DNA of 64,000 bases. Origin: Flagellimonas algicola (GTDB lineage Bacteria > Bacteroidota > Bacteroidia > Flavobacteriales > Flavobacteriaceae). This document shows positions 3,727 through 36,153 of this stretch, in pieces. Under the pieces are notes generated by a model that ran no database searches, was not told the DNA's origin, and worked only from the letters and a program-made list of their open reading frames with translations. Within the stretch, counting starts at the first letter, position 1. Every line of letters starts with the position of its first letter. The DNA lies in NCBI RefSeq assembly GCF_005937185.1, contig NZ_VCNI01000006.1:285-64284 (forward strand), given 5' to 3'. Both the position numbers and the translations under genes were made by a program.

Positions 3727-3767
3727 TTTCAATATTGATTTAAATAATCTTGAATTTTAAAATGAAC

Positions 3768-3848
3768 GTCATTCTGAGCTTGTTTCAGAATCCCAATTCC
3801 TTGGCGTCCAATTTTAGTTGTGAGACCCTGAAATACATTCCGGGTGAC
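3768..3848. repeat. Facing pair of REP-like palindromes (DUF3467-rpoC gap)
   Basis: The left copy, GTCATTCTGA...TTTCAGAATC (3768-3792), folds on ATTCTGA/TCAGAAT. The right copy (3822-3848) is inverted; on the minus strand it reads GTCACCCGGA...TTTCAGGGTCTC. They are 29 bases apart, a REPIN-like arrangement. Both have the ACTTGTTT-type loop (right copy slightly decayed) seen again in trpF and around the second GIY-YIG gene. Confidence 0.8.
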
Positions 3849-3859
3849 GTCGAGATATT

Positions 3860-29575: not shown

Positions 29576-29593
29576 TGCAATTTTTAATTCTTG

Positions 29594-29960
29594 TTTCCGC
29601 GGAGGCGGAAATCAAAATGTAAAGTTCAGCAAAGGCAAGAATGAGTTTTTATGTCTACATCATTTCAAACAAAAAGAATGGGACTATTTATATAGGCTAT
29701 ACCAATGATCTGGGAAAAAGAATGAAACAGCATAAAAATGGAACAGGAAGCAGATTTGCAAAACGTTATGCATTGGACAAGTTGGTATACTATGAAAAAT
29801 TCAAATTTCCAATGTCTGCCATTAAACGGGAAAAACAACTAAAAAAATGGAACCGACAATGGAAAATAAACTTGATAAATGATTTTAATCCAAAATGGGA
29901 AGATCTAACATGGTTTTTCGAATAAGTAACAACGATATGATTTCCGCCTTCGCGGAAATG
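29594..29960 (+). mobile_element. GIY-YIG gene framed by inverted palindromes (element 1)
   Basis: The left palindrome TTTCCGCGGAGGCGGAAATC (29594-29613) and the right one GATTTCCGCCTTCGCGGAAA (29939-29958) are reverse complements with one mismatch, in the hairpin loop. Each folds on TTTCCGC/GCGGAAA. Between them lies a single GIY-YIG gene. The 367-base unit sits between the trp attenuator and trpE, so it is transcribed under trp control. Arrangement and size match element 2 at 35800-36141. The mobile nature is inferred. Confidence 0.65.
29641..29925 (+). CDS. Single-domain GIY-YIG nuclease
   Basis: A 94-residue protein that is only a GIY-YIG domain: FYVYIIS (residues 3-9, the GIY part), IYIGYTNDL (the YIG part), the conserved Arg in KRMKQH and the metal-binding Glu in KREKQLKKW, ending WKINLINDFNPKWEDL. 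This is the small family often misnamed UvrC-like in annotations; it lacks the rest of UvrC. It should cut DNA with one divalent metal. It is about 45% identical by eye to the second copy at 35835-36113. Flanked by inverted palindromes; lies between the trp attenuator and trpE. Confidence 0.9.
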   Translation: MSFYVYIISNKKNGTIYIGYTNDLGKRMKQHKNGTGSRFAKRYALDKLVYYEKFKFPMSAIKREKQLKKWNRQWKINLINDFNPKWEDLTWFFE

Positions 29961-29980
29961 AAAGAAAATTATTTTCGCTC

Positions 29981-31378
29981 ATGAAATATTCGCTCAAAAC
30001 ATCATATAAGCAGATTTTAGCAGATACCATTACTCCAGTTAGCGTGTATTTGAAAATTCGTGATAAATTTCCGAACAGCATCCTTTTGGAAAGTAGTGAC
30101 TACCATGCTAACGATAACAGTTTTTCCTATATCTGCTGCAACCCAATAGCTTACATCAAGGTACAGGACGAGATTATTACCCAGCGTTTTCCGGATGGAA
30201 GCAAGGAAGAAATCAATATTGGCCCAGATACCGATGTAACCGAGGTAATCCATGATTTTGGCCAGCGATTTTCAGTCCCGGATAACAGTTTCAAGTTCAT
30301 TAACAATGGTCTTTTTGGGTATATGGCCTATGATGCGGTACGCTATTTTGAGGATGTTGAAGTTACGTCCAAAGCCGATTCCGTTCGCATTCCAGATATA
30401 TACTACGCCGTTTATCAGAACATCATCGCCATTAACCACTTCAAGAACGAAGCTTACCTTTTTGCCCACTGTTACGAATCAGAAAGTAATGTGGACGAAC
30501 TGGAGCAGTTGTTCAAGGTAAGAAACTTTGCTTCCTATAATTTTTCCAAGGAAGGTGCAGCTGTTTCCAACCTAAAAGATGAGGAATATATAGAGCATGT
30601 GGCCTTGGCCAAAAAACACTGCCAAAGGGGAGATGTATTCCAGTTGGTTTTGTCCCGAAGGTTCTCGCAAGGATTTAAGGGAGATGAGTTCAATGTCTAT
30701 AGGGCACTGCGATCCATCAACCCTTCCCCCTATCTGTTTTATTTCGATTATGGAGATTTTAAAATATTCGGCAGTTCGCCAGAAGCGCAATTGATCGTTA
30801 AGGATGGAAAGGCTGAAATCCATCCCATTGCAGGCACCTATAAAAGAACCGGGAATGATGAGAAAGATGCGGAACTGGCCAAAAAATTGGCTCAAGATGA
30901 AAAGGAAAACAGCGAACACGTCATGTTGGTAGACTTGGCTCGAAATGACCTAAGCCGCAACGGAAATACCGTAAACGTGGAGACTTATAGGGAAGTGCAG
31001 TATTTCTCCCATGTGATTCATTTGGTCTCCAAAGTAACAGGACTTAAGAAAAAAGAAAGTACCACTATGAAAGTGGTAGCAGATACCTTTCCTGCGGGAA
31101 CTTTGAGCGGTGCTCCCAAGCATATGGCCATGCAGCTGATTGAAAAATATGAAAAAACCAGCAGGGCCTATTATGGAGGGGCCATTGGTTTTATGGATTT
31201 TAAGGGCAATTTTAACCATGCCATCATGATCCGAACTTTTCTAAGTAAAAACCACCAATTGCATTATCAAGCCGGTGCCGGTTTGGTAGCTGCTTCGGAT
31301 CCTGAGGCGGAACTACAGGAAACATACAACAAATTGGGTGCTTTGAACAAGGCACTTGAAATTGCAGAAACAATCTAA
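29981..31378 (+). CDS. trpE: Anthranilate synthase component I
   Basis: A 465-residue chorismate-utilising enzyme that makes anthranilate from chorismate with ammonia from TrpG. The N-terminal feedback region contains LLESSDYH (the Ser of LLES binds Trp in homologs). The catalytic domain shows GDVFQLVLSRRF, RSINPSPYLFYF, GSSPEAQL, HPIAGTYKR, DLARNDLSR and FPAGTLSGAPK. First enzyme gene of the operon; ends three bases before trpG. Confidence 0.97.
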   Translation: MKYSLKTSYKQILADTITPVSVYLKIRDKFPNSILLESSDYHANDNSFSYICCNPIAYIKVQDEIITQRFPDGSKEEINIGPDTDVTEVIHDFGQRFSVPDNSFKFINNGLFGYMAYDAVRYFEDVEVTSKADSVRIPDIYYAVYQNIIAINHFKNEAYLFAHCYESESNVDELEQLFKVRNFASYNFSKEGAAVSNLKDEEYIEHVALAKKHCQRGDVFQLVLSRRFSQGFKGDEFNVYRALRSINPSPYLFYFDYGDFKIFGSSPEAQLIVKDGKAEIHPIAGTYKRTGNDEKDAELAKKLAQDEKENSEHVMLVDLARNDLSRNGNTVNVETYREVQYFSHVIHLVSKVTGLKKKESTTMKVVADTFPAGTLSGAPKHMAMQLIEKYEKTSRAYYGGAIGFMDFKGNFNHAIMIRTFLSKNHQLHYQAGAGLVAASDPEAELQETYNKLGALNKALEIAETI

Positions 31379-31381
31379 AAA

Positions 31382-31948
31382 ATGGCCAGAAAGATTTTAA
31401 TGATAGACAACTACGATAGTTTCACCTATAATTTGGTGCACTACCTTGAGGATTTGGATTGTGACGTGACCGTAAAACGAAATGATCAATTGACCTTGGA
31501 CGAAGTACAAGCTTTTGATGAAATTGTGCTCTCTCCCGGCCCGGGAATCCCGGATGAAGCAGGTTTGCTCAAGGATATCATCAAAACCTACGCCGCAACC
31601 AAACGGATTTTAGGGGTCTGTTTGGGTCAACAGGCTATTGGAGAAGTCTTTGGGGGCACTTTGGTTAATTTGGATCAGGTATACCATGGGATTGCCACCC
31701 AAATTACAGTGACCAGTCCAGGTATTTTGTTCCAAAACATGCCAGAGCAAATCCAAGTAGGGCGCTACCATTCTTGGGTGGTGCATCCCGATCTACCTGA
31801 AAGCTTGGAAGCCACCTCGGTGGATGAAAATGGGCAAATTATGTCCTTAAGACATAAAACATACGATGTAACGGCAGTGCAATTTCACCCAGAGTCCGTG
31901 TTGACTCCGGAAGGAAAACAAATGCTAAAAAATTGGCTCAACGGCTAG
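31382..31948 (+). CDS. trpG: Anthranilate synthase component II (glutamine amidotransferase)
   Basis: A 188-residue class I glutamine amidotransferase supplying ammonia to TrpE. Catalytic C80 in GVCLGQQAIG, with H169 and E171 in QFHPESV. Gap to trpE is three bases, so translation is probably coupled. In some bacteria TrpG also serves folate synthesis (PabA); this cannot be excluded. Confidence 0.97.
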   Translation: MARKILMIDNYDSFTYNLVHYLEDLDCDVTVKRNDQLTLDEVQAFDEIVLSPGPGIPDEAGLLKDIIKTYAATKRILGVCLGQQAIGEVFGGTLVNLDQVYHGIATQITVTSPGILFQNMPEQIQVGRYHSWVVHPDLPESLEATSVDENGQIMSLRHKTYDVTAVQFHPESVLTPEGKQMLKNWLNG

Positions 31949-31954
31949 TTTAAT

Positions 31955-32021
31955 GTCGTTCTCGTGCAAACGGGAATCCAAATTAAATATGAAATAGATT
32001 CCGCACGTGATGCGGAATGAC
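31955..32021. repeat. Facing palindrome pair between trpG and trpD
   Basis: Left GTCGTTCTCGT...ACGGGAATCC (31955-31979), stem TTCTCGT/ACGGGAA with one G-T pair. Right (31997-32021), inverted, stem ATTCCGCA/TGCGGAAT with loop CGTGA. The 17-base spacer and facing order are REPIN-like. The right copy contains an ATG (32017) in frame with trpD. Confidence 0.85.
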
Positions 32022-32034
32022 AACAAGAAATAAA

Positions 32035-33030
32035 ATGAAAGCAACTTTAAATCGATTAATAAATCACGAAATCCTTCCCAAAGAAGATGCCAAGCAGATT
32101 TTGGTCAACATCGCCAAAGGGGATTACAATACTTCCCAGATTGCCGCCTTTTTAACCGTTTATATGATGCGAAGCATTACCATAGAGGAACTGGAAGGTT
32201 TCAGGGATGCACTCTTGGAGTTATGCTTGGCGGTGGATTTGGCCGAATACAATCCCATAGATCTCTGCGGAACGGGAGGTGACGGTAAAGATACTTTCAA
32301 TATTTCCACCCTTGCCTCTTTTGTAACAGCAGGTGCGGGAGTAAAAGTAACCAAGCATGGCAACTATGGGGTTTCTTCCAAGTGCGGAAGTAGCAACGTG
32401 ATGGAATTTTTGGGTATCAAGTTCAGTAATGAGGCTGATTTTCTAAGAAAGTCAATTGATGAAGCTGGGATTTGCGTACTGCATGCACCCCTGTTTCACC
32501 CGGCCATGAAAAATGTGGCCCCCATCCGGAGGGAATTGGCCGTAAAAACCTTTTTCAACATGTTGGGGCCCATGGTGAATCCTGCTTTCCCAAAAAACCA
32601 AATGGTAGGTGTGTTTAATCTAGAGTTGGCTCGAATGTATGGGTACCTTTATCAGAACACCGACAAGAATTTTACTGTACTTCATGCGCTGGATGGATAT
32701 GATGAAATCTCCTTGACCGGAGCTACCAAAACCATTTCCAATGACTCCGAAGGCATGTTAGCGCCGGCGGATTTTGGGGTAGATAAAATTTCTCAAGATC
32801 AAATTACGGGAGGGGAAGATATCGCCGAATCGGCCCAAATCTTCTTGGATGTTCTCAATGGTAAAGGAACCGAAGCCCAAAACAATGTGGTCTGTGCCAA
32901 TGCCGGGGTGGCCATAGCCACGGTAAATCAACTTTCCCCTAAAGAAGGGTTTGAAAAAGCCAAAGAGTCACTTTTAAGTGGCAATGGAATGGAAGCACTT
33001 AAAAAATTACAAGAATTAAGCAAAAACTAA
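32035..33030 (+). CDS. trpD: Anthranilate phosphoribosyltransferase
   Basis: A 331-residue enzyme that joins anthranilate to PRPP. The PRPP-binding CGTGGDGKDT is at 78-87, with KHGNYGVSSKCGS and the anthranilate region NVAPIRRELAVKTFFNMLGP. The start ATG at 32035 (MKATLNRLINHEILP) fits the family. Another in-frame ATG at 32017 is part of a palindrome and would add six residues. The gene is flanked by palindrome pairs on both sides. Confidence 0.97.
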   Translation: MKATLNRLINHEILPKEDAKQILVNIAKGDYNTSQIAAFLTVYMMRSITIEELEGFRDALLELCLAVDLAEYNPIDLCGTGGDGKDTFNISTLASFVTAGAGVKVTKHGNYGVSSKCGSSNVMEFLGIKFSNEADFLRKSIDEAGICVLHAPLFHPAMKNVAPIRRELAVKTFFNMLGPMVNPAFPKNQMVGVFNLELARMYGYLYQNTDKNFTVLHALDGYDEISLTGATKTISNDSEGMLAPADFGVDKISQDQITGGEDIAESAQIFLDVLNGKGTEAQNNVVCANAGVAIATVNQLSPKEGFEKAKESLLSGNGMEALKKLQELSKN

Positions 33031-33031
33031 T

Positions 33032-33088
33032 GTCACCTCGAGCGCGGTCGAGAGGTCTCATAAGACTCTTCACTACGCTCAGAATGAC
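33032..33088. repeat. Facing palindrome pair between trpD and trpC
   Basis: Left GTCACCTCGA...AGAGGTCTCA (33032-33060) and right, inverted (33064-33088), reading GTCATTCTGAGC...AGAGTC on the minus strand. Only three bases separate them. They fill nearly the whole trpD-trpC gap, starting one base after the trpD stop codon. Loop class CGAGCGCAGTCGAG. Confidence 0.85.
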
Positions 33089-33096
33089 CTTTGAAT

Positions 33097-33882
33097 ATGA
33101 ACATTTTAGACAAAATAATAGCCGATAAACGCAAGGAGGTAGATTTGAAAAAATCTTTGATTCCTCCAGGGCAATTGGAAAAATCCGTTCTCGTGGAAAG
33201 GAGTACAGTTTCACTGGCCCAGGTACTTAAAAATAGCGCTACTGGCATTATAGCAGAACACAAACGGCGTTCTCCTTCAAAATTGGTAATCAACCAAGGT
33301 TTAAACGTTCAGGATGTAGCTACAGGGTATGAGCAAGCTGGGGTATGCGGCATGTCGGTTTTAACAGACGGCAAATACTTTGGTGGTTCTTTGGATGACT
33401 TGTTATTGGCACGAGCAAAGGCCTCTTTGCCCCTTTTACGAAAAGAGTTCATCATCGATGAATATCAGTTACTGGAGGCTAGGGCCCATGGTGCGGATGT
33501 GATTTTGCTCATTGCTGCCATTCTAACAAGGGATGAAATCAAACAGCTTTCAGAAACGGCCAAAAGTTTAAGCTTGGATGTACTCTTGGAAGTCCATAAT
33601 GAAGAAGAGCTACAAAAGTCGCTCATACCAAGTTTGGACATGCTGGGGGTCAACAATCGTAACCTAAAGACATTTGAGGTGAGTTTGGATACCAGCAAGA
33701 CGTTGTCCAAGCTCATTCCCAATGATTTTGTAAAGGTTTCCGAAAGCGGTATAAGTTCCGTTGAAGCTATCAAGGATTTAAAGCAATTCGGATATCAAGG
33801 CTTCTTGATTGGAGAGAATTTTATGAAAACCGACAATCCTGGGAAGCATGCCGCCGAATTTATAAAAGCTTTGGAATCATGA
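33097..33882 (+). CDS. trpC: Indole-3-glycerol-phosphate synthase
   Basis: A 261-residue TIM-barrel enzyme that closes the indole ring of CdRP. Start MNILDKIIADKRKEV at ATG 33097 (a TTG two codons earlier is part of the same frame). Family motifs: IIAEHKRRSPSK with the substrate-binding Lys, ILLIAAILTRDE, NNRNLKTF, SESGI. It overlaps trpF by four bases (ATGA), so the two are translationally coupled. Confidence 0.97.
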   Translation: MNILDKIIADKRKEVDLKKSLIPPGQLEKSVLVERSTVSLAQVLKNSATGIIAEHKRRSPSKLVINQGLNVQDVATGYEQAGVCGMSVLTDGKYFGGSLDDLLLARAKASLPLLRKEFIIDEYQLLEARAHGADVILLIAAILTRDEIKQLSETAKSLSLDVLLEVHNEEELQKSLIPSLDMLGVNNRNLKTFEVSLDTSKTLSKLIPNDFVKVSESGISSVEAIKDLKQFGYQGFLIGENFMKTDNPGKHAAEFIKALES

Positions 33883-34613
33883 AACTGAAAGTGTGTGGCA
33901 TGAAATATAATCCAACAGAGGTGGCGCAATTACAGCCGGATTATCTAGGTTTTATTTTCTGGGAACCTTCATCTCGCTATTTCGAAGGAGAAATTCCGGA
34001 ATTGCCAAAATCCATCAAAAAAGTGGGGGTTTTTGTGGATGCTGAAGTTGAAGAGGTTTTGGAAAAAGTAGAAGCGTTTAGGTTGGATGGCGTTCAACTC
34101 CATGGCAATGAAAATCCAAATTACTGTCAGGAACTTCGTCATGCTGTACTTGGTTCAACATCTCACACCAATGGGATTCCGAAACAAGTTGAGGACAACC
34201 AGCTGTCACTTCGATCGCAGTCGAGAAGTGGAAAGAATAAGGTCTCGACTGCGCTCGACCTGACAATTATCAAAGTTTTCTCCATCAAAGACTCTTTCGA
34301 TTTTTCCATTTTAAAAGAATACGAAGATGTCTGCGATTATTATTTGTTCGATACCAAAGGAAAACTCCCCGGAGGAAATGGATATGCCTTTGATTGGTCC
34401 ATTCTTAAAGACTACCCTTCCACAAAACCGTACTTTTTAAGCGGAGGAATCGGATTGGACTCTATCGAGGATTTAAAAGAATTTTTGGCAAGTTCTGCTT
34501 CCAACTTTTGCCATGCGATAGATGTTAATAGCAAATTTGAAATAGAACCTGGTCATAAAAGCATCGCGCAACTAAAACAATTCAAAAAAACATTAATTGA
34601 TAATCCAACATGA
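33879..34613 (+). CDS. trpF: Phosphoribosylanthranilate isomerase with a palindrome-derived insertion
   Basis: A TIM-barrel isomerase acting before TrpC. The catalytic Cys is in KVCGMK (C6) and the Asp is in [20 protein letters not shown] and FLSGGIG are also present. The protein is 244 residues where about 200-210 is usual. The excess is at residues 87-129, between YCQELR and the strand TIIKVFSI, and is exactly the translation of four palindromes (34137-34264). The insertion is in frame without stop codons and sits at a loop between the third helix and fourth strand, so activity is probably kept. Overlaps both trpC and trpB by four bases. Confidence 0.93.
34137..34264. repeat. Two facing palindrome pairs inside trpF
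   Basis: Copies at 34137-34165, 34174-34196 (inverted), 34205-34231 and 34241-34264 (inverted). The first pair has the ACTTGTTT-type loop (CGTCATGCTG...CAACATCTCA) with several decayed stem positions. The second pair has the TCGATCGCAGTCGA / TCGAGCGCAGTCGA loop class, with GGTC/GACC and ACTT/AAGT stems and a 2-base bulge. They translate into about 43 residues within trpF. Confidence 0.85.
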
Positions 34614-35791
34614 GTTACTACGTCGACGAAAAAGGATACTACGGTGAATTTGGGGGAGCATATATCCCGGAAATGCTATATCCGAATACCGAAGAACTGC
34701 GCCAGAATTATCTCGAAATCATGGCAGCACCTTCCTTTAAGGAAGAGTTTCACCAATTGCTGAAGGATTATGTGGGTAGACCCACTCCGCTCTATTTTGC
34801 GGAGCGCTTATCCAACAAGTACAACACCAAGATATACTTAAAACGGGAGGACCTCAACCATACTGGAGCCCATAAGGTGAACAACACCATTGGTCAGATT
34901 TTAATGGCCAAAAAATTGGGTAAAAACCGAATAATTGCCGAAACAGGAGCAGGTCAGCATGGGGTAGCCACTGCAACGGTTTGCGCCCTCATGGGAATTG
35001 AATGTGTAGTATACATGGGCGAAGTAGACATAGCACGTCAAGCCCCAAATGTAGCTCGGATGAAGATGCTTGGGGCAGAGGTAAGACCTGCCTTATCGGG
35101 GAGTCGAACGTTGAAGGATGCCACCAACGAGGCTATTCGAGATTGGATTAACAACCCTGTAGATACCCATTACATCATTGGCTCGGTTGTGGGGCCACAT
35201 CCCTATCCGGATATGGTAGCCCGATTTCAATCGGTGATTTCTGAGGAGATAAAAGCCCAACTCTTGGAAAAAGAAGGTAGGAAAAACCCTGACTATGTGG
35301 TGGCCTGTGTAGGTGGCGGGAGCAACGCAGCGGGAGCTTACTATCACTTTTTGGATACCCCTGAGGTAGGCATCATTGCTGTGGAGGCCGCCGGAAAGGG
35401 AATTCATTCAGGGGAAAGCGCCGCAACTTCGGCCTTGGGCAAAGTTGGGATTATCCATGGAAGTAAAACCTTGTTGATGCAAACTCCGGATGGGCAGATT
35501 ACGGAGCCCTATTCCATTTCCGCGGGCTTGGATTATCCCGGGGTAGGTCCCCTGCATGCCCATCTGTTCAAATCGGGGCGAGGAGAATTTATTTCCATTA
35601 CCGACGATGAGGCCATGACGGCTGGGTTAACGCTTTGTCAACTGGAAGGCATCATCCCCGCCATTGAATCCTCCCATGGATTGGCCATTTTGGAGCAACG
35701 AAAGTTTAAGTCGGATGATATCGTGGTCATGAATCTTTCTGGCCGTGGGGACAAAGACCTCCAGAACTATATTGATTATTTTAAACTGTGA
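34610..35791 (+). CDS. trpB: Tryptophan synthase beta chain
   Basis: A 393-residue PLP enzyme that condenses indole with serine. PLP Lys is in [11 protein letters not shown] (K89); phosphate loop GGGSNAAG; catalytic Glu region [27 protein letters not shown]. Start ATG overlaps the trpF stop (ATGA). It is separated from trpA by GIY-YIG element 2, which breaks the usual tight trpB-trpA link. Confidence 0.98.
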
Positions 35792-35799
35792 TCCGTGCC

Positions 35800-36141
35800 G
35801 TCATGCTGAACTTGTTTCAGCATCTCAAAATGATATGAAATCAAGCTTTGTATATATCATAACTAACCAATATCGAACTACTTTTTACATTGGTGTTACC
35901 GCAGATTTATATAAAAGAGTTTCTGAGCATGAAAATGGTATTGGCTCAACATTCACAAAAAAATACAATTTGAAAGATTTAATCTATTTTGAAGAGTTTT
36001 CTGATATAAACCAAGCCATTGCTAGGGAAAAACAGATAAAAAACTGGCATAAAGAATGGAAAATCAATCTGATAAAAGAAAAGAATCCTTCACTTTCAAC
36101 TTTAAAATTATGATGAGAACCTGAAACAAGTTCAGGTTGAC
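35800..36141 (+). mobile_element. GIY-YIG gene framed by inverted palindromes (element 2)
   Basis: The left palindrome GTCATGCTGA...TTCAGCATCTCA (35800-35827) and the right one (36114-36141) face each other; the right reads GTCAACCTGA...TTCAGGTTCTCA on the minus strand. The loop and inner stem are the same in both, but the outer stem differs by paired changes (ATG/CAT against AAC/GTT), so each hairpin stays intact. A GIY-YIG gene fills the inside. The unit begins eight bases after trpB and ends twelve bases before trpA. The mobile nature is inferred. Confidence 0.7.
35835..36113 (+). CDS. Single-domain GIY-YIG nuclease (second copy)
   Basis: A 92-residue GIY-YIG domain: SFVYIIT, FYIGVTADL, catalytic Arg in YKRVSEH, Glu in REKQIKNW, then WKINLIKEKNPS. 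Start ATG 35835 (MKSSFVYII). The frame is open back into trpB, but the extra part only translates the palindrome (RHAELVSASQNDM). Paralogous to 29641-29925. It lacks any DNA-binding add-on domain seen in homing endonucleases. Confidence 0.9.
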   Translation: MKSSFVYIITNQYRTTFYIGVTADLYKRVSEHENGIGSTFTKKYNLKDLIYFEEFSDINQAIAREKQIKNWHKEWKINLIKEKNPSLSTLKL

Positions 36142-36153
36142 GAAACTAATACT

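Follow-up and report, generated by a model that had tools for sequence, protein, structure and literature searches.

Within a 64,000-nucleotide stretch of the Flagellimonas algicola genome (contig NZ_VCNI01000006.1; hereafter the window), a 344-bp unit carrying a GIY-YIG nuclease gene between two hairpins, which we call unit 2, occupies positions 35799-36142 between trpB (end 35791) and trpA (start 36154). We consider it probable that unit 2 is an autonomous copy of a mobile element of the repetitive extragenic palindrome (REP) type, whose only gene encodes a single-domain GIY-YIG nuclease dedicated to the hairpin class of the unit. This reading follows from the class-matched pairing of nucleases and hairpins, from the occurrence of filled, empty, single-hairpin and gene-less forms of the insertion sites, and from genomic hairpin copy numbers that follow the nuclease.

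Unit 2 consists of a CGTC-tagged hairpin, the GIY-YIG gene and a second CGTC-tagged hairpin in reverse orientation, with both tags facing outward. The nuclease gene is the only gene inside, and the unit contains no known transposase of the kind that characterizes insertion sequences. Both stems are paired at 8 of 8 positions, the outer three pairs being ATG/CAT on the left and AAC/GTT on the right, just as an earlier reading of the letters alone (the sequence-only reading) had described when it reported paired outer-stem changes around a common loop. The same reading had placed the unit correctly but had drawn it, at 35800-36141, one base too short on each side. It had also called the enclosed protein a paralog of the one encoded near trpE (unit 1) with a different palindrome class, and we found the two proteins to be 51% identical, with different palindromes around the trpE-side gene.

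The ends of unit 2 resemble the CGTC-tagged REPs described by Di Nocera et al. 2013 (PMC3733652). As described there, these repeats are known from five phyla including Bacteroidetes and reach high copy number in genomes. One end has an unpaired tag, CGTC (or TGTC/CCTC); the 8-9 bp stem almost always opens with a paired A, T; the loop measures 4-5 nt; and the tail is short, unpaired and in most cases CCA. They form inverted dimers, often of two unlike partners; a dedicated transposase was reported to be lacking, and the paper left their mover open. Unit 2 shares with them the unpaired CGTC tag at both ends, the 8-bp stem, the 5-nt loop (CTTGT, within the stated range), the short tail and the inverted arrangement. 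Judged by sequence, its ends would fit the class, although the fit is not complete: the left stem opens with AT, as is the norm, and the right stem with AA, the tail reads CTCA rather than CCA, and the own genome holds few copies, with 4 exact CTGAACTTGTTTCAG sites on both strands (a relative, G113, has up to 33). In 76 of 108 tagged sites of this class, position 2 of the stem was T paired with A.

Because the own genome contains only 20 core matches, and all three outer pairs were present in 6 of the 17 contexts read there, which is underpowered for a covariation test, we turned to relatives. From the loci collected, we sampled all distinct contexts of 35 bases that contained the core CTGAA-N5-TTCAG (138 contexts), with the outer pairs left unselected. 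In the 108 contexts carrying a GTC tag, the three outer positions paired in 103, 106 and 104 cases, while the fourth, tag base against tail base, paired in 0 of 108; the stem is therefore 8 bp long with sharp ends. Several pair types occurred at the first outer position of these contexts (GC 48, CG 40, TA 12, AT 3), and outer pairing was weaker in the 30 untagged contexts (18, 24 and 18). Stem covariation was thus seen across these tagged sites, and the suggestion from the sequence alone that structure rather than sequence is conserved was supported.

A further expectation, that the left and right ends of unit 2 differ through drift of one hairpin kept by compensation, was not supported. We compared 11 units that had both ends resolved and a protein at least 62% identical to that of unit 2, which was itself among them. 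Of these, 10 had one ATGCTGAA-type (ATGC) end and one AACC/ACCC/ACAC-type end, the ATGC end lying upstream of the gene in three and downstream in seven; the exception, L022, had ACCC at both nearest ends. The unlike ends therefore represent a recurrent two-end signature and not recent drift, and they may keep the unit free of a single long, perfect inverted repeat.

The 92-aa product of unit 2 matched PF01541 in a profile search with 60.9 bits (cut-off 22.6), and at E ≤ 0.001 its Pfam matches were PF01541 and T5orf172 alone. The own genome contains 11 PF01541 matches, of which 10 exceed the cut-off. Alignment of 36 proteins revealed 11 invariant positions, among them Y7, Y18, G20, R28, H32, E65 and N84; we take Y7, Y18, R28, H32 and E65 to be the catalytic set of two tyrosines, arginine, histidine/tyrosine and glutamate. 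The predicted structure had a mean predicted local distance difference test (pLDDT) score of 92.9, and its nearest solved folds were the UPF0213 protein BH0048, Slx1, the UvrC N-terminal domain, At-HIGLE and I-TevI. The best Foldseek E value was 1.3e-3, with none at or under 0.001, and the VIA Z scores of the named folds ranged from 7.5 to 5.2, values under 8 being counted as middling. By sequence profile, the nearest relatives with solved structures were two UPF0213 proteins (PDB 1zg2 and 1ywl; entries titled hypothetical proteins). Slx1 acts on branched DNA according to its entry titles and has much longer chains (249-298 residues), and we assign the unit 2 protein to neither group. The likeness of the predicted fold to a branched-DNA nuclease would fit action on folded hairpins, and is no proof of it.

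We then examined how regularly such genes and such hairpins occur together, using a detector that requires near-complete pairing and a GTC tag and misses classes with other tags. The broad set, independent of the family set below, consisted of the best 80 of 243 confirmed stretches, chosen by similarity to one protein only, from Pseudomonadota, Bacteroidota, Parcubacteria, Chloroflexota, Bacillota and others, 77 of them with usable flanks. Tagged hairpins lay upstream of the gene in 50, downstream in 44 and on both sides in 37 of these 77 (shuffles: 1.3, 1.65 and 0.05), and when the tag was required to face the gene the corresponding counts were 22, 30 and 16. The family set comprised 93 units from the same bacterial family, mainly top-scoring matches (30 loci and 60 fetched regions), after removal of three duplicates and of open stretches under 60 aa; here the 160 nt next to the gene contained a GTC-tagged hairpin on the upstream side in 38 units, on the downstream side in 35 and on both in 28 (shuffles: 0.5, 0.25 and 0). 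Pooled over 173 units, 125 had at least one tagged hairpin and 79 had one at both ends. The commonest order of the nearest hairpins was that of unit 2, with both tags outward (27 of 43 in the broad set, 31 of 51 in the family set). By eye, the long-loop class GTCATTGCGAGG...GAAGCAATC and other palindromes flank many of the units that the strict detector missed. Among genes from a plasmid collection, in which one query protein matched 33 records, 8 loci were read by eye and had hairpins on both sides in 6 and downstream only in L146 and L152. In some cases, as in Azospirillum, the gene is flanked on both sides by a complete hairpin pair.

The same data bear on the idea that GIY-YIG genes and REPs merely accumulate in shared permissive intergenic sites. 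The trpB-trpA junction and a site within trpF have indeed been hit repeatedly, as this idea would expect. However, a different GIY-YIG subfamily of the same bacterial family had hairpins on both sides at 0 of 18 loci (one downstream hit; 17 loci fully usable, L257 being cut by a contig end), and the far flanks of the broad set (750-1000 nt, n = 63) gave 6 hairpins upstream, 4 downstream and 0 on both sides. Chance co-occupation of this kind also leaves the matching of the two ends to each other, and of clade to class, without an explanation; it is already contradicted and we give it almost no credence. By comparison, then, the nuclease-hairpin pairing is widespread, subfamily-specific and class-matched, and the association is strong.

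Hairpin class was matched both within units and along the nuclease phylogeny. Within a unit, the two end stems had an identity of 0.84, compared with 0.51 between ends of different units (0 of 2000 permutations); in the broad set alone the values were 0.87 and 0.58. Palindromes were more alike the more similar their proteins were (Mantel r 0.333, n = 125, 0 of 999 permutations), with a similarity of 0.34 for proteins 40-50% identical and of 0.77 for those 70-85% identical. The protein tree (125 proteins, 110 units labelled) showed 17 changes of loop type against a shuffled minimum of 43, and 8 changes between CTGAA/CCGAA stems and others against a shuffled minimum of 21. Together with the copy numbers given below, the Mantel correlation and the loop changes affirm the link between nuclease clade and palindrome class on whose absence the sequence-only reading had said it would fall.

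One feature of the protein also tracked the hairpin class. Of 10 units with a K.G motif (Lys-x-Gly replacing Lys-x-Trp in a helix; for example L071, L076, L099 and L232), 9 had long-loop hairpins of the ATTGC/ATTAC type, compared with 2 of 109 others, and the motif is a possible specificity element. It changes only 3-4 times on the tree, a number too small for a paired test to reach significance, so a residue-to-class code was not upheld and we claim no convergence.

At the genome level, we counted hairpins in 149 genomes of the family, one per genus; hairpins beside the nuclease gene itself were counted too, and host phylogeny was taken into account through the choice of one genome per genus alone. 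Of the 28 genomes with a close relative of the unit 2 nuclease (E ≤ 1e-27), 25 had at least three copies of CTGAACTTGTTTCAG, versus 20 of 121 others (Fisher p 3.8e-13); the means were 8.8 and 1.5 copies. For a second class, at least three ATTCCTGC hairpins occurred in 28 of 57 genomes with a nuclease like that of L053 (E ≤ 1e-20) versus 11 of 92 others, and in 11 of 13 at E ≤ 1e-37 versus 28 of 136 (p 6.3e-6). Mean copies of CTGAA and ATTCCTGC were 8.6 and 4.0 in the 20 genomes with the unit 2 clade only, 1.0 and 5.2 in the 5 with the L053 clade only, 9.4 and 14.0 in the 8 with both, and 1.5 and 1.8 in the 116 with neither. Class specificity at the genome level is partial and not clean. Copies away from nuclease genes were sampled as 40 ATTCCTGC sites among the places listed for seven genomes, those beside known units being left out: 6 had a strict tags-out partner, 0 a tags-in partner, 15 stood alone and 19 lacked a GTC-tagged focal copy, while several further dispersed copies had decayed partners by eye. 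The pair model for dispersed copies rests on these few strict cases.

Comparison of sites between relatives showed the unit to be present or absent and its class to vary. At the trpB-trpA junction of 23 genomes of the genus, the own included, inspection by eye found a GIY-YIG unit in 4 (the own and three of another class), gene-less hairpin pairs in 5, a single hairpin in 1, overlapping trpB and trpA in 5 and other spacers in 8; because the unit-free relatives have other spacers or overlapping genes, the boundaries of the insertion cannot be fixed there. At one site within trpF of the genus (16 sequences, by eye), gene-less pairs were inserted in frame: 4 sequences had CTGAA/CCGAA-type pairs, 6 a long-loop pair and 2 half of that pair, the own genome had both classes in series, 1 had another sequence and 2 had nothing. 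The two without insertion were L313 and the more distant L316, one of them from another family. In L059 (G019, contig 20), three GIY-YIG units stand in tandem and two of them share an identical internal gene deletion; the defective copy itself was multiplied. In Azospirillum lipoferum, a GIY-YIG gene with hairpin pairs lies between sufB and sufC. A search of 50,697 phage records with the L053 protein as sole query, not the protein of the window itself, returned 0 matches. Two Rhizobium plasmids (L146 and L241) differ in a hairpin-pair block of about 250 bp, one of them having one extra copy (94.7% identity).

A further site lies on Sphingobium replicons, where 18 records matched. In seven of these the unit sits next to fnrL within a single unbroken match, one of the seven having a frame-breaking change, and 4 further records match in two pieces, 2 of them with one hairpin tagged on both sides and 2 with neither hairpin; 3 of the 7 filled records and all 4 two-piece records were aligned, and the remaining 7 partial matches were left out. 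The single hairpin is either a deletion remnant between repeated arms or an uninterrupted target, and the data do not decide between these. Free-standing GIY-YIG homing endonucleases related to I-TevI have a GIY-YIG catalytic domain and could spread their own gene through breaks. In the main rival explanation, the CGTC REPs were there first as targets and owe their movement to another agent, and the nuclease gene is a parasite of the homing type whose insertion sites are the REPs that its enzyme cuts. Read in that way, the hairpin tagged on both sides in two Sphingobium replicons is the uninterrupted target and the filled form is the same hairpin split by the gene; I-TevI is among the nearest folds, and REP-bearing genomes without a close nuclease exist. 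A deletion between the repeated arms would, however, explain the single hairpin equally well, and gene-less pairs keep the two-ended order of full units, with copy number following the nuclease. Unit 2 differs from the I-TevI kin in that its 92-aa protein has no extra DNA-binding domain, in its hairpin ends, in its gene-less copies and in the lack of phage matches to the one query used. We regard homing as unlikely, though it deserves more weight than the other alternatives.

A third alternative would make the protein a domesticated host nuclease that trims or polices palindromes acting in RNA, as terminators or in 3' end protection, or in chromosome upkeep. The position of unit 2 between co-directional genes of one operon and the presence of the structure-specific nuclease Slx1 among the nearest folds speak for a host role. 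Against it stand the patchy distribution of the nuclease (matches at E ≤ 1e-8 in 87 of 149 family genomes), the several paralogs of different classes per genome, the empty and filled sites and the tandem copies with a deleted gene, which leave it improbable. The protection of RNA ends that the sequence-only reading had entertained found no support, in an analysis that included no test of RNA function: the tags mostly point outward on both sides, the hairpins bound a unit that some relatives have and others lack, and numerous copies are found at a distance from any nuclease gene.

Several observations weigh against a REP-type mobile element. Mobility is suggested by comparison between genomes, and movement itself was never observed; at the one aligned set of filled and empty sites where target duplication was sought, that of Sphingobium, none was identified. 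Orders other than both tags outward are frequent, with both tags inward in 8 (broad set) and 7 (family set) and mixed orders in 8 and 13. By the detector, 48 of 173 units have no tagged hairpin, many of them having other tags or long loops by eye. The correlation of palindrome with protein similarity is modest. Across classes, ATTCCTGC is weakly tied to the unit 2 clade as well (12 of 28 versus 27 of 121, p 0.03) and the CTGAA core to the L053 clade (9 of 13 versus 36 of 136, p 0.003), and two genomes without a close nuclease are rich in copies (G070 with 25 CTGAA cores, G096 with 21 ATTCCTGC).

As a mechanism for the mobile element, we propose that the nuclease would recognize the folded hairpin, either in lagging-strand single-stranded DNA or as a cruciform, through its stem, loop and GTC/C boundary, and would cut its cognate hairpin at the GTC/C base of the stem. 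Repair of the break could then copy the unit, or a gene-less hairpin pair, into a new site, and most CGTC REPs would be gene-less or decayed copies of such units. The closest organizational parallel is the REPtron (PMC8266576), which likewise combines a small enzyme gene with inverted tagged hairpins, dispersed gene-less copies and enzyme-hairpin matching. The REPtron enzyme is a HUH tyrosine transposase (RAYT/TnpA-REP) and its tag is GTAG, whereas unit 2 has a GIY-YIG protein and a CGTC tag, which places it outside the REPtrons; the chemistry must therefore differ, and by organization unit 2 is a REPtron-like system with an unrelated enzyme. A term count found GIY-YIG nowhere in the CGTC REP paper, and no report linking a GIY-YIG protein to REPs was listed among 5.39 million open-access papers, a search whose coverage excluded preprints and most subscription journals and in which long result sets were checked in part.

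The window contains further palindromes of this kind, many of them in the trp region (Table 1). Unit 1, upstream of trpE, lacks the unpaired CGTC-type tag and has CTTG on its left and TTTC on its right. REP-type material occurs at five places of one trp operon (29590-36142): upstream of trpE, between trpG and trpD, between trpD and trpC, within trpF and between trpB and trpA. The right end of the trpG-trpD pair overlaps the ATG of the trpD open reading frame, and the repeat may supply the start codon. A detector scan of the whole window gave 12 standard-type hits compared with 2 to 8 in shuffled windows; isolated hits elsewhere in the window may therefore be chance. The features in the table are pairs or belong to known insertion sites.

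Table 1. REP-type features of the window, with positions, strand and the basis on which each was assigned.
Feature	Position	Strand	Basis
Gene-less tags-out pair of the unit 2 class; left ATTCTGAG-CTTGT-TTCAGAAT, right ACCCGGAA-TGTAT-TTCAGGGT	3767..3849	.	both ends by scan
Unit 1, left palindrome TTTCCGC-GGAG-GCGGAAA, tail TCA; preceded by CTTG, not CGTC	29590..29615	+	
Unit 1, GIY-YIG nuclease gene, 94 aa, upstream of trpE	29641..29925	+	
Unit 1, right palindrome ATTTCCGC-GAAG-GCGGAAAT	29940..29959	-	
Gene-less pair, trpG-trpD junction	31955..32021	.	scan for the right end; left end, decayed, by eye
Gene-less pair of the long-loop class, trpD-trpC junction	33032..33088	.	left end by scan, right end by eye
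In-frame insertion in trpF (33879-34613), palindrome pairs of two classes in series	34137..34264	.	by eye and comparison with relatives
Unit 2, left end: CGTC (35799-35802), 8-bp stem ATGCTGAA/TTCAGCAT, loop CTTGT, tail CTCA	35799..35827	+	
Unit 2, GIY-YIG nuclease gene, 92 aa, trpB-trpA junction	35835..36113	+	PF01541, predicted model, fold comparison
Unit 2, right end: CGTC tag outward, 8-bp stem AACCTGAA/TTCAGGTT, loop CTTGT, tail CTCA	36114..36142	-	

Beyond this locus, we lean slightly towards the wider proposal that a single small GIY-YIG nuclease, with neither transposase nor recombinase, mobilizes CGTC-type palindromes across bacteria, forming a bacteria-wide class of hairpin-ended replicators that is parallel but unrelated to the RAYT/GTAG system and whose gene-less copies are the common CGTC repeats found between genes and sometimes within them. 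The GIY-YIG protein is in any case a candidate partner enzyme for the CGTC REPs, which are widespread repeats, and the question of what moves them becomes directly testable. If true, the proposal would represent a new route of DNA mobility, in which hairpins are spread by a nuclease without a transposase, and it would account for the inverted and often unlike REP pairs, for the turnover of classes between related genomes and for the in-frame invasion of genes, here of trpF.
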